Assembly (NCBI RefSeq): GCF_005048225.1
Contig: NZ_SUNI01000001.1
Location: forward strand, 372,001-436,000
Origin: Paracoccus gahaiensis
Lineage (GTDB): Bacteria > Pseudomonadota > Alphaproteobacteria > Rhodobacterales > Rhodobacteraceae
Length of the DNA: 64,000 nt
Direction: 5' to 3'
Position 1 is the stretch's first letter, and each line of letters starts with the position of its first letter. Of the stretch, positions 57,341 to 61,687 are shown one piece after another. The notes under the pieces are model-generated. The model did no database searches. It worked only from the letters and a program-made list of their open reading frames with translations, and was not told the DNA's origin. The translations under genes and the position numbers were made by a program.

Positions 57341-58243
57341 TCAGTTTGCGGGGGCCTCGGGCAGCGGCTCGACGATGCCCGGGACGATGGGTTCATCGGC
57401 GGCGGGGGCGCCGTCGCCCGGCATCGGGGGATCGACCGGGGCGGGGGCGGGCCCACCCTGGGGCCCGCCATGGTGGCGGCCATGGGAGGGCATCGGGGCG
57501 CAGGCGCCCTCGCCCGCCAGCGCGAACTCGACCTCGACCTGCGCCGTGGTCTCGACCTCGCCGGGCTGGACGGGAGTGCTGTCGGCCATCGCCGCCTCCA
57601 TCCGCATCATCGGGCGCGGGCCGCCATTGCCGGTCGCCACGTCGCGCAGGGTCATCAGCGGACCCAGCTCGACGCCGGCGGCCTCGGCCAGGACCTCGGC
57701 CTTGCGCCGCGCATCGGCGACCGCCTCGCGGCGGGCGTCGTCCTGGGTCGAGGCGCCATCCTCGCGGGTGAAGGTGATGCCGTTGATCTCGTTGGCGCCG
57801 GCGCCCACGATCGCGTCCAGCACCTCGCCCAAGGTCCCCAGATCCGAGACGCGGACGGTCACCATGTTGCTGGCCTGATAGCCCGTCACGGTGGGCGCCT
57901 GGTTCTCGCCATATTGCATCAGCGGGTTCAGCGACAGGCCCGAGGTCTGGATCTGCGCGGCGTCGATCCCCGTGTCGGTCAGGGCCGCGATCACCGCGCT
58001 CTGGCGGTCGTTGTTCTGCGACATCGCCTCGGCGGCGCTGTCGGCCTGGGTGGTGACGCCCAGCTGGATGCTGGCCATGTCGGGGGCGGTCCGGGACTGG
58101 CCCTCGCCCGTGACGGTCATGCGCGAGGGGCCGGCGGGGCCGCAGGCCATCGGCGCGGCGAGGGCGGGACCGGCGGTCAGCGCGGCCAGCGCCACGCTCA
58201 GGGCCAGGCGGCGGGCATGCGGGGCACGGAGGGAAGGTCGCAT
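57341..58243 (-). CDS. Secreted SIMPL (DUF541) domain protein
   Basis: A 300-residue periplasmic protein: signal peptide (RRLALSVALAALTAGPALA-A), then SIMPL-domain motifs VTGEGQSRTAPDMASIQLGV, TVTGYQASNMVTVRVSDLG and DARRKAEVLAEAAG. The last 50 residues are proline- and glycine-rich. ATG 58243 has AAAGGA upstream. SIMPL proteins are linked to envelope and oxidative stress, mechanism unknown. Confidence 0.85.
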   Translation of the reverse strand: MRPSLRAPHARRLALSVALAALTAGPALAAPMACGPAGPSRMTVTGEGQSRTAPDMASIQLGVTTQADSAAEAMSQNNDRQSAVIAALTDTGIDAAQIQTSGLSLNPLMQYGENQAPTVTGYQASNMVTVRVSDLGTLGEVLDAIVGAGANEINGITFTREDGASTQDDARREAVADARRKAEVLAEAAGVELGPLMTLRDVATGNGGPRPMMRMEAAMADSTPVQPGEVETTAQVEVEFALAGEGACAPMPSHGRHHGGPQGGPAPAPVDPPMPGDGAPAADEPIVPGIVEPLPEAPAN

Positions 58244-58447
58244 CGGGGGATCCTTTCTGATCACACGTTGGGCGTGCCTTGTGATGCCTCGGACCTCCTG
58301 CGATGCACAGCCCTTTTGCGCGCAAATCCGATCACAGATGTGGCAGTTCTTCTTTCAACACTCCACAATTTGCGGTAGAGAGGACGACGAGGCCAACGAC
58401 ATGGCGCGCACGCATCGCACCATGCAAACCGAGCAGTGAACACATCC

Positions 58448-61400
58448 ATGAACCAGCATGCCGCGTCCCCTGAATTCGCCATGAGCTTTACCCAGGAGGC
58501 CGTGCAACTGGAATGTCGCGACGGCCCCGAATGGCAGCCGCTCGGCCAGGCCCGCTTTGCCGGCGGCGACCTGGCCTCGGTCCTCAACGCCCTGCGCAAG
58601 GAGGCCGGGGGTCAGGCCGGCGAGCTGGACACCGTGCTGGTGATCCCCGACGACCAGATCCTGTATACGGTGCTGACGGTGCCCTTCGGGTCCGACACGG
58701 CGGCCACCATCGCGCGCGCACTGGAGGCCTCGTCGCCCTACCGGGCCGAGGATCTGGCCTTCGACTGGTGTCCCGCCGCCAATGGCGACATCGAGACGCT
58801 GCGCGTGGCCGCCGTGGCCCGCCGCACCCTGGACGAGGCCGAGGATTTCGCGCGCGCGCAGGGGTTCCGCCCTTCGGGCTTCCAGGCCCGGCCGGGCGAT
58901 GACCGTTTCGAGGGGCAGCCCGATTTCGGCCCCACGCGCCTGGCGCAGGAACAGTTCGACCGCCGTCCCTTCAGCGCGCCCGACCTGATGCAGGCCCGCG
59001 TCACCGCCCCGGTGATCGAGGTCGAACCGGGCGCGGCCCCGGCGATGGCCGCGCAGCCCGCCGTCTCGCGGATCACCCCGCATGTGCCGGTGCAGATGCC
59101 GGCGGATGCGGTGGTCGCGACGGATGCTGTCGCCGATGCCGATGCCGGGGACGCCAGTCCGGCCGAGGGGGGGGCGTCTGGCGCCGTCATCCGGCATGGC
59201 GGGGCGCTGACCGCCAGCCGCCTCTCGCCGCGGGCCGAGGCCCTGCATCAGCGTGCCGCCACGGCGAAGGCGCAGCGCGCGGCCGAGGCCGCGGATCCCG
59301 TCCCGACGCGCGGTCTTGCCGATCGGCTGCGGGCGCTGGATCCCGGGCGGTTGCCGGTGATGCTGGGCGGGCTGGTGCTGATCCTGGTGCTGGCGCTGCT
59401 GGTCTTCGGCCGCCCGACCTCGCAGACCCCGGTCGCCGAGGCGCCGCCGACGGAGGTTCCAGTGGCTGAGGCGCCTTCGGCACAACCCGAGGGCGAGCTG
59501 CCGGCGGCCCCTGCGCCCGCGGCGGATCCCGCCGAGGTGGCGCCGGTTGTGCCGGAGACGGCGCCCGAGACGGCGGCTGAGACGGCCCCCGTCACGGCAC
59601 CTGATGCCCCTCTGGCCGAGGCACCGGACGCCCCGGCTGAGAGTGCCGCGCCGGCGCCGGTCGCCCCGACCCAAGCGCCCGCGACCGAACCGGATGCGCT
59701 GGACCGTGCCTTGGCCGAGGCTCTCGGGACGGCGCCTCCGGCTGCGGGCGTGACGCCCGAGGCCGCCGCCAGCGCCGCGACCGCCGCCTCTGCGGCGGCG
59801 GGTCTTCCCGTGACGGGCGCGGCGACCGGAACGGCCTCCGCGACGGCTCCGGCATCGGAGTTCGTTCCCGCCGAGAACGCCCCTGCCGCGCCGGCGCCGG
59901 GATCCCCCGCCGAAACGGAGGGCGCGACCCCACCGCCTGCGGCACCTCCTGCCACAGCGCCTTCGGCAGCGGCCACCGGCCCGCTGGCCCGTTCCGTGCG
60001 CCCGCCCCCCCGGACGGCGCCCGAGGCCGCCGCGCAGCCCGCGGCCCCCGACAGCCGCCCGACCGTGCCCGAAAGCCCTCTGCCCTTCCAGGCAGAGGTG
60101 CAGCCCGCGCCCGAGGCGCCCGCCGTTGCCGCCACGCGGCCCCGGTCGCGCCCGACCGTCCCGGCGGCGGCACCTCAAGCCGACGCGCCCGCTCCGGCGC
60201 CCGCGGCAACCGGCCCCGCAACGCCTGCGCCGGCAGCCGCCGCACCGACCCCGGCACCGGCGGCTCCGACCGCCACGGCTCCGGCGGCGCGGCCTGACGG
60301 GGCCCGGCCCCCGGCTGCCAGCGCAAGCCCGAACCCTGCCCCGACCTCTGCGCCAAGCCCCGCCCCGGCGCCGACGGCGACCCCGGTCGAATCGACCTCG
60401 CGTCCGCCGGCCCGGCCTCAGAGCCTGTCGCAGCTGGACGAGGGCAGCGCCGCCGAGGCGGATCAGCCGCGCCGCCTGACCCTGGCCGAGCGGGGCCAGA
60501 CCGCCCTGCAGCTGAGCGACCTCGGCGTGCCCCAGATGGGCGTCGGGTCCCTGGCCGACCGCGATCCGCTGGTGCACCCGGTGCGCCTTGCGCGGGTCGA
60601 CGCCGCCGAGGACCGCCTGCGGCAGCAGCAGCGCGACCTGCGCACGGCGCAGGCCGGCGCGGCGCCGCTGAGCCGGGCCGAGCGCGGGATGGTCTTCCAG
60701 CTGGCCGATGCCCGCCCGATCCGCAAGCCCACGGCAGGCGCCGTCCCCGCGCCGCGCGCCGCGCAGAGTTCCGTGTCCGCGCCCCGCCCCGCCGCGCGCG
60801 CCAGCATCGCGGCGGATGTCGTCTCGCCCCCCGCCTCGGCCAGCCCGGCACCCGCCGTCACGGCAGCCTCCACGGGGACCATCCAGCGCTCGGCCCGGCC
60901 CGCCAGCCGGCCCGAGACGCAGGCCGCCCCCAACCGCGTCTCGGGCGCGGCGGTCGAAGAGGCCATCGCCTCGGCCATCGACGACAGCCCGGCCCGGCCC
61001 GGCGCGGTCGCCCTGACGGCGCTGACCTCGTCGCAGGTGCCGCCGCGCCGGGCGGCACGGGCCACCGGGGCCGCGGTCAATTCCATGATGGCCTCGGCCG
61101 CGCCGGTCGCCGCCGCGCTGACGCCCTCGGCCTCGGACCTGCGGGCCGCCGCCGAGGCACAGGCCGCCGCAGCCGCCGCCGCGGCGGCCCAGAATTCACA
61201 GGCCGCCCTTGCCGCGCAGCGCCGCCAGGATGACGAATTGCAGGCCCAGGCCGAGGCGCGGGCCCGGTCCCAGGCTGCCGCCGATGCGCGCGCCGACGCG
61301 CAGGCCCGCGCCGCCGCCGAGGCCCGCGCCCGCGCACAGGCCCAGGCAGAACAGCAGCGGGCCGCCGCGCGCAACCAGCGCTATCAGCCGCCCGAGGTGG

Positions 61401-61687
61401 ATGCCGAGCCCGACGTGGTCGCCGCCGTGCCGCAGAATGCCGTGGGCAATGCCGCCGCCAGCGCCACCGTCAGCGACGGCATCCAGCTGAACAGCACCCA
61501 GATCATCGGCACCATCGGCGCGGGTCGCGCCAGCCGGGCGCTGGTGCGCCTGTCGAACGGGCGGGTGCTGACGCTGCGGATCGGCGACCGCATCAATGGC
61601 GGCACGATCAGCGAGATCGGCGACAGCCGCATCACCTATCAGAAGCAGGGCCGCGCCCATGCCCTGGGCGTGCTGAACGGGCAGTAG
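58448..61687 (+). CDS. Large membrane protein with GspL/PilM-like N-terminus and GspC/PilP-like C-terminus
   Basis: A 1079-residue protein of unknown function. Residues about 10-145 (TVLVIPDDQILYTVLTVPFG, ASSPYRAEDLAFDW) resemble the cytoplasmic actin-like part of GspL/PilM. One membrane helix follows at about 301-321. Then come several hundred residues rich in Ala and Pro, a long alanine-rich coiled coil (about 894-977), and a compact C-terminal domain from about 1010 (SRALVRLSNGRVLTLRIGDR) like PilP/GspC periplasmic domains. The start could be GTG 58436. It would span the envelope. No other secretion genes are nearby. Confidence 0.72.
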   Translation: MNQHAASPEFAMSFTQEAVQLECRDGPEWQPLGQARFAGGDLASVLNALRKEAGGQAGELDTVLVIPDDQILYTVLTVPFGSDTAATIARALEASSPYRAEDLAFDWCPAANGDIETLRVAAVARRTLDEAEDFARAQGFRPSGFQARPGDDRFEGQPDFGPTRLAQEQFDRRPFSAPDLMQARVTAPVIEVEPGAAPAMAAQPAVSRITPHVPVQMPADAVVATDAVADADAGDASPAEGGASGAVIRHGGALTASRLSPRAEALHQRAATAKAQRAAEAADPVPTRGLADRLRALDPGRLPVMLGGLVLILVLALLVFGRPTSQTPVAEAPPTEVPVAEAPSAQPEGELPAAPAPAADPAEVAPVVPETAPETAAETAPVTAPDAPLAEAPDAPAESAAPAPVAPTQAPATEPDALDRALAEALGTAPPAAGVTPEAAASAATAASAAAGLPVTGAATGTASATAPASEFVPAENAPAAPAPGSPAETEGATPPPAAPPATAPSAAATGPLARSVRPPPRTAPEAAAQPAAPDSRPTVPESPLPFQAEVQPAPEAPAVAATRPRSRPTVPAAAPQADAPAPAPAATGPATPAPAAAAPTPAPAAPTATAPAARPDGARPPAASASPNPAPTSAPSPAPAPTATPVESTSRPPARPQSLSQLDEGSAAEADQPRRLTLAERGQTALQLSDLGVPQMGVGSLADRDPLVHPVRLARVDAAEDRLRQQQRDLRTAQAGAAPLSRAERGMVFQLADARPIRKPTAGAVPAPRAAQSSVSAPRPAARASIAADVVSPPASASPAPAVTAASTGTIQRSARPASRPETQAAPNRVSGAAVEEAIASAIDDSPARPGAVALTALTSSQVPPRRAARATGAAVNSMMASAAPVAAALTPSASDLRAAAEAQAAAAAAAAAQNSQAALAAQRRQDDELQAQAEARARSQAAADARADAQARAAAEARARAQAQAEQQRAAARNQRYQPPEVDAEPDVVAAVPQNAVGNAAASATVSDGIQLNSTQIIGTIGAGRASRALVRLSNGRVLTLRIGDRINGGTISEIGDSRITYQKQGRAHALGVLNGQ

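Follow-up and report, generated by a model that had tools for sequence, protein, structure and literature searches.

In the type II secretion system (T2SS), GspC is described in an available extract of PMC3169554 as a membrane helix followed by a Pro-rich linker and an HR domain, the latter binding the N0 domain of the secretin, and GspL is described in the accessible part of PMC4471445 as binding GspE. The same extract of PMC3169554 reports a natural fusion of PilO and PilP in Pseudomonas putida, and GspB/OutB is presented, in the accessible part of PMC9239104, as the anchor that attaches the secretin to both the inner membrane and peptidoglycan. Both folds discussed below, as well as natural fusion with PilP, are already known from such systems. 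The subject of this report is a gene of Paracoccus gahaiensis at positions 58448 to 61687 of a stretch of 64,000 nucleotides (contig NZ_SUNI01000001.1, positions 372,001 to 436,000; hereafter the window), whose single product almost certainly joins a GspL-type domain to an HR domain of the GspC type. The reading favored here, to which a probability of roughly 0.6 is given, is that this fusion serves as an envelope scaffold independent of secretins, and that it arose from gspL and gspC parts that were fused and repurposed.

The reading frame lies on the plus strand and starts with an ATG at 58448, the point from which the Paracoccus relatives align; an alternative in-frame GTG at 58436 would yield 1083 residues. 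The chain and its surroundings are laid out as follows.

58448..61687, plus strand: whole gene, 1079 residues and stop (frame, alignment of relatives)
58448..58927, plus strand: residues 1-160, putative GspL/PilM-like cytoplasmic domain (Foldseek and profile-profile comparison; low-confidence model)
58928..59350, plus strand: residues 161-301, poorly conserved cytoplasmic linker (median identity of 31% among Paracoccus)
59351..59407, plus strand: residues 302-320, single transmembrane helix, N-terminus cytoplasmic by the charge rule (hydropathy, charge)
59408..61126, plus strand: residues 321-893, Ala/Pro-rich periplasmic linker (composition, topology)
60137..60154, plus strand: first RPxxRP motif, RPRSRP (motif scan)
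60401..60418, plus strand: second RPxxRP motif, RPPARP (motif scan)
60896..60913, plus strand: third RPxxRP motif, RPASRP (motif scan)
61127..61387, plus strand: residues 894-980, long Pro/Gly-free helix or coil rich in Ala, Gln and Arg, a Paracoccus feature (composition, relatives)
61460..61684, plus strand: residues 1005-1079, HR domain of GspC/PilP type (fold and profile searches)
57341..58264, minus strand: divergent SIMPL (DUF541) neighbor, frequent but not obligatory (Pfam)

A preliminary description of the window had proposed a 1079-residue protein with one membrane helix and a Pro/Ala-rich linker, and frame, hydropathy and composition all agree with it. The hydrophobic peak at residues 302-320 has a mean Kyte-Doolittle value of 2.94, the runner-up segment reaching 1.22, and residues 321-900 consist of 29% Ala and 18% Pro. 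Positive charge is higher before the membrane helix than after it in 44/44 proteins, that of the window included, which by the charge rule would place the N-terminal end in the cytoplasm. Since both ends are conserved among Paracoccus relatives while residues 321-700 are not (median identities to 22 relatives of 60% for the N-terminal domain, 71% for the C-terminal domain and 24% for residues 321-700), the frame is a real gene and not a chance frame of GC-rich DNA; letter-shuffled frames gave 0/5966 matches with the profiles of either end. A scan of the region for promoters and terminators returned 0 and 1 site, respectively, as expected by chance, and direct repeats within the gene were short repeats of Ala/Pro codons that formed no regular array.

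Genome context across the class, judged from sequence, offers the strongest evidence on the identity of both ends. In these searches, 289 genomes were scanned with an N-profile built from 40 genera and a C-profile built from Paracoccus; "family" denotes here the family of the genome collection used, which we take to be GTDB's wide Rhodobacteraceae (198 genomes of 197 genera, 174 of them of good quality). The N-profile matched eight of the class genomes, four within the family and four outside it (E 3e-9 to 5e-4), and the four outside proteins, which are 373-392 residues long, can be assigned to the GspL type because they carry a PilN domain over the cut-off and a PilM_2 match (over the cut-off in one). 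The C-profile matched six class genomes, four in the family and two outside, and both outside matches lie directly upstream of a secretin with a GspD N0 domain, so that position and profile suggest that they are GspC-like. In genome G343 both profiles fall within one cluster, ordered gspL, a gap of 529 bases, gspC-like gene and gspD; G347 displays the same order with a gap of 532 bases. Two of the gspL-type genes outside the family are preceded by pseudopilin-like frames, read as such by eye. Points that weaken this identification are that neither C-match outside the family is named GspC by Pfam (one has no match and the other matches CdsD_C/HofP below the cut-off), that the N-profile failed to pick up the GspL-type protein in G347, and that the neighborhood was seen for three of the four N-matches, that of G404 not being among them. 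The notion that the protein has nothing to do with secretion systems, small and common folds having been matched by chance at both ends, could draw on sequence scores that lie below cut-off and on a poor model of the N-terminal domain; it is, however, very improbable, given that, outside the family, two separate profiles reach GspL-type proteins and genes that immediately precede gspD, both of them in a single cluster in one genome. It is of note that this gspD-cluster context does not depend on the profile-profile numbers given below.

Fold comparison leads to the same two families. For the C-terminal domain, whose predicted model has a predicted local distance difference test score (pLDDT) of 78.3, Foldseek ranks PilP and GspC in positions 1 to 3 (E 0.011-0.054), with unrelated folds from 0.13 onward, while the top twelve VIA rows consist of PilP, GspC/PulC HR, GspB, a PilQ-complex chain and a Dot/Icm chain (Z 7.8-5.0), the first unrelated row having a Z of 4.6; the alignments at Z 7.8 cover 61 and 69 residues with root-mean-square deviations (rmsd) of 2.8 and 3.4. 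Model and VIA thus place a small all-beta HR domain of the PilP/GspC fold at the C-terminal end. A search of PDB sequences with the Paracoccus C-profile returned GspC (7oio) first, at E 0.01, followed by PilP in second and third place (range E 0.01-0.14), and in Pfam and NCBIfam searches with the full-length protein PilP matches the C-terminal end weakly, with E-values of 0.15 and 0.018. PilP is also the Pfam family that matches most C-terminal domains, in 22/23 Paracoccus proteins and in 40/40 proteins of a set from 40 genera. (Paracoccus sets are counted without L040, which lies at the same place as L003, and L041, whose frame is split in two; the 40-genera sets and the analyses of 44 proteins are counted without L126, which has two overlapping frames.)

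At the N-terminal end, Foldseek against the PDB places GspL in ranks 1 to 4 (E 6.6e-5 to 1.1e-4, with PulL as the best match at 6.6e-5) and PilM in ranks 5 to 10 and 12. The top seven VIA rows comprise GspL, PilM and one chain (Ma) of a type IV pilus machine model, with Z values of 5.8-4.7 (GspL 5.8, PilM 5.7) and a first unrelated row at 4.4. Pfam T2SSL matches N-terminal domains in 5/23 Paracoccus proteins and in 3/40 of the 40-genera set, and PilM_2 does so in 1/23 and 5/40. Profile-profile comparison with hhalign aligns the N-terminal domain with the alphaproteobacterial GspL-type proteins at 97.9% (E 4.2e-13) and the C-terminal domain with the two GspC-like proteins at 95.1% (E 3.2e-8); crossed pairs, employed as controls, gave 0.2% and 0.1%. 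Foldseek and hhalign therefore both point to an actin-like cytoplasmic domain of GspL type at this end, on a model of low confidence. Each end consequently resembles the fold that the preliminary description had assigned to it, GspL/PilM and GspC/PilP, respectively, and the result that would have refuted that description, ends without a match to these folds, did not arise. Designed TPR proteins, which headed PDB sequence searches with the N-terminal domain, were rejected, as their score is a sum over near-identical repeats and the best single-repeat E-value in these alignments is no better than 12.

Several of these results count against the assignment. The N-terminal model has a pLDDT of 50.4 and a predicted template modeling score (pTM) of 0.42, it covers only approximately the first 140 residues of the GspL fold and only the first part of the PilM fold, and its structural alignments have an rmsd of 7.2-8.5 over 106-116 residues, or of 2.3 over 57. 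For both ends, the lowest-ranking related row of VIA exceeds the first unrelated row by less than 1, and the tool warns that a Z below 8 may reflect a common arrangement. The N-terminal domain of the window's own protein matches no Pfam family, and N-profiles searched against PDB sequences found neither GspL nor PilM; a wider C-profile gave weaker results against the same sequences, with GspC first (0.036), an uncharacterized protein second and PilP sixth. Unrelated families were also hit, DUF7710 in 4/40 N-terminal domains and ribosomal L2 in 11/40 C-terminal domains, and all Pfam and NCBIfam matches printed for the fusion protein and its relatives fall below the curated cut-off. Finally, most of the proteins entered in the profile-profile comparison had themselves been detected with these profiles, so that those numbers carry less weight.

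The gene is widely kept. Within the genus, the first 161 residues match 24/25 genomes (that of P. gahaiensis included) and 0/16 genomes of other families, and among the matches listed there are at least four named relatives, all Paracoccus species; a relative in Pseudorhodobacter turbinis, on a replicon of 1.58 Mb, shares 42.5% identity over the N-terminal domain, both genera being placed by NCBI taxonomy in Paracoccaceae, Rhodobacterales. The N-terminal domain is found in 183/198 family genomes (164/174 good ones) and the HR domain in 187/198 (168/174 good ones); 15 genomes lack the former, 11 the latter and six both (G055, G073, G099, G162, G202 and G235, four of which are smaller than 3 Mb). 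Conservation in Rhodobacterales, which had been put forward as a check, was clear: a wider N-profile, in a search that covered the N-terminal domain and in which a few weak matches could be GspL itself, matched 149/149 well-sequenced Rhodobacterales genomes, which all belong to the family and represent 72 genera. Both domains share one frame at 39/40 loci from 40 other genera (787-1230 residues from stop to stop), and the HR domain ends at most four residues from the stop codon in those 39. The fusion gene thus appears to be close to a core gene of the family, and this distribution makes it scarcely credible that it is the decaying, functionless fossil of a lost T2SS. That PilN, a mark of GspL or of type IV pili, is found in only 12/198 family genomes could be taken as a trace of such loss, but the N-terminal domain is present in every one of the 149 well-sequenced genomes, and conservation is much higher at both ends than in the linker.

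Variant forms were also encountered. At L126 (6096-9007), the fortieth of the loci from other genera, the gene is split into two overlapping frames, in which a sequencing error, a real frameshift or a shortened form may be seen. In three Paracoccus loci (L036, L037 and L048) the frame grows to 1399-1639 residues from stop to stop, and in L036 an expanded cytoplasmic linker places the membrane helix at residue 643. G130 and G204, secretin-free genomes of 2.2-2.5 Mb, have a detected HR domain and no detected N-terminal domain, possibly as shortened forms. Short N-domain frames occur in three genomes of one genus (247, 257 and 272 residues, in G585, G593 and G608) and in one Paracoccus (422 residues), and may have the same causes as at L126; the fusion may therefore not extend to every genome, a point that limits the favored reading.

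The genome of P. gahaiensis itself (G000; 4.18 Mb, 99.98% complete) shows that the usual partners can be dispensed with. The partner searches addressed the secretin, PilN and the T2SSE ATPase; pseudopilins were not searched. Neither secretin PF00263 nor PilN PF05137 has a match in this genome, and the single T2SSE match is VirB11-like (read by eye) and lies beside a TrbI gene, so that no GspE-type ATPase was found. In the absence of a secretin match, the secretin as a partner in this genome is not supported, and the fusion cannot operate there in the manner of its relatives from T2SS or type IV pilus machines. The VirB11-like ATPase, at G000:C5 10845-11309 (L151), probably belongs, with its TrbI neighbor, to a conjugative type IV secretion system. 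Of the 23 secretin-free family genomes (20 listed and three obtained by elimination), 19 keep the N-terminal domain, and one of them, G085, is a single contig, 100% complete, with both domains. Conversely, G112, G144 and G203 possess, in addition to the fusion gene, a PilN-bearing gene, which is located on a different contig close to a long secretin. Because it is kept without secretin or PilN and also in genomes with a separate PilN-bearing gene, the fusion protein is, as far as gene content indicates, not simply a part of a T2SS.

These data also bear on the proposal that the protein serves the Tad pilus or another secretin machine as an accessory component, with its HR domain on the N0 domain of the secretin and its GspL-like head on an ATPase. 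PF00263 is present in 175/198 family genomes, where a role with a secretin is conceivable and would speak against independence, and the docking partners reported in the extracts of PMC3169554 (HR domain with N0) and PMC4471445 (GspL with GspE) fit such a role. The P. gahaiensis genome nevertheless has the gene with no secretin match and a VirB11-like protein as its only T2SSE match, most secretin-free genomes keep the N-terminal domain, and no secretion gene was recognized among the conserved neighbors, all of which makes this proposal distinctly unlikely.

Neighboring genes are of no help to a secretion role. Among those put to Pfam in the window (SIMPL, TraB/GumN, GroES and AAA ATPase), none is a secretion gene, and at 45 loci, in 44 of which the target gene itself was recognized, no secretion gene, gsp genes included, was recognized among the conserved neighbors, in keeping with the isolation noted in the preliminary description. 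Frequent neighbors across genera are a Cys/Met metabolism enzyme, SIMPL, an antiporter, CarD and a ferredoxin, named by eye except for SIMPL. SIMPL lies beside or near the fusion gene in 28/45 loci; it was not supported as an obligatory partner, being found in 156/198 family genomes against 183/198 for the N-terminal domain.

The region between the membrane helix and the HR domain is poorly conserved in sequence and has a marked composition. Periplasmic linkers measure 320-684 residues, and the motif [RK]PxxRP occurs 107 times in 44 of them, compared with 1.8 in composition-keeping shuffles; at least one copy is present in 44/44 proteins, and two motifs were seen in cytoplasmic linkers. An alignment of 44 tails contains a GLVxATPEG consensus segment, the strict pattern of which is found in 15/44, some by chance, and in none of the five Paracoccus. 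The long coiled coil of the preliminary description would correspond in this protein to residues 894-980, a stretch of 87 residues without Pro or Gly and rich in Ala, Gln and Arg, but it does not extend to the family: such stretches measure 62-87 residues in five Paracoccus and at least 58 in 21/23, whereas the median in 39 other genera is 22 residues and the maximum 48. The coil is thus a Paracoccus addition.

An inner-membrane scaffold that never reaches the outer membrane has to be considered in this light; it would attach to the wall, to lipopolysaccharide or to a periplasmic protein through either its HR-like domain or its Arg-Pro motifs. It would be consistent with the wide occurrence of RPxxRP in the periplasmic linker and with stand-alone HR-like proteins in relatives that have no membrane segment, which implies that docking on a secretin is not needed. 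Linkers of 320-684 residues, on the other hand, may have sufficient length to span the periplasm, and this alternative is judged unlikely.

The stand-alone proteins (85-90 residues; L133:4965-5222, L134:4944-5210 and L135:6950-7222) have no hydrophobic segment near their start and a best T2SSC/PilP match of 1.4e-5, just below the cut-off; their genes lie between purF-like and short-chain dehydrogenase/reductase (SDR)-like genes, as read by eye. Two HR matches are present in 41/198 family genomes, and second copies were read in three. An HR domain in the cytoplasm would be odd.

A secretin-independent scaffold could have arisen within an ancestral gsp cluster, through a deletion or fusion that put the GspL head in front of the membrane helix, Pro-rich linker and HR domain of GspC, a route that the gene order in G343 and G347 would make easy. 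The fused gene now stands alone at a conserved locus and is kept in genomes that have no secretin. In its product, the GspL-like head may keep a partner from the cytoplasm at the inner membrane, the Pro/Ala linker, extended and bearing the Arg-Pro motifs, may pass through the periplasm, and the HR domain may dock on a partner bound to the wall or the outer membrane that is not a secretin. Crossing of the periplasm by the linker and binding by either end enter this scheme as proposals, which lessens its weight. A single-chain connector of inner and outer membrane, as first suggested for this gene, is plausible. More specifically, the protein could be an offshoot of the T2SS platform, free of secretin and GspE, that replaces the L-M-C bridge and acts across the family as a housekeeping tether between a cytoplasmic partner and the wall or outer membrane, with a non-secretin receptor for the HR domain; this is offered as a tentative suggestion, somewhat more doubtful than not. 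If such a tether exists, it would form a further class beside the small number of links known between the inner membrane and the wall or outer membrane. The conserved gene, whose product probably extends through much of the envelope, carries its own clues, as the binding faces of proteins related to its head and to its foot are known, and the two ends of the T2SS bridge, here separated from the machine, can each be studied alone, in an order that includes the laboratory models Paracoccus and Rhodobacter.

Searches of the open-license literature, made without a locus tag from a studied strain, brought up no account of a chain uniting GspL with GspC, nor of an HR domain retained where a secretin is absent, and the available part of a paper on Rhodobacter sphaeroides CenKR (PMC9275681) mentions neither PilP nor GspL. 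Comparison with known systems is nonetheless instructive. The N-terminal domain aligns with residues 51-188 of alphaproteobacterial GspL (373-392 residues), which make up most of the part before the GspL membrane helix (read by eye), but the fusion has no PilN-like periplasmic domain and carries the Pro/Ala linker and HR domain in its place; neither gsp neighbors nor, in its own genome, a GspE-type ATPase were recognized. With GspC it shares the membrane helix, the Pro-rich linker and the HR domain, whereas the cytoplasmic part of GspC is short and the fusion carries a whole GspL-like domain and a 684-residue linker, outside any gsp cluster and in a genome with no secretin match. GspB/OutB, of HR-like fold (4wfw, VIA Z 5.4), differs in that it works with a secretin; it is not known to have a GspL-like head. 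PilM and PilP of type IV pili would share the two folds of the fusion ends, but they are separate proteins, and their usual companions, the secretin and PilN, have no match in the P. gahaiensis genome; PilP is, moreover, a lipoprotein anchored by its N-terminus, while the HR domain of the fusion is the C-terminal end of a bitopic chain. The PilO-PilP fusion, finally, is likewise a naturally occurring fusion containing a PilP domain, but it joins two neighbors within the type IV pilus system, and not an ATPase-side end to a secretin-side end, as the protein described here appears to do.

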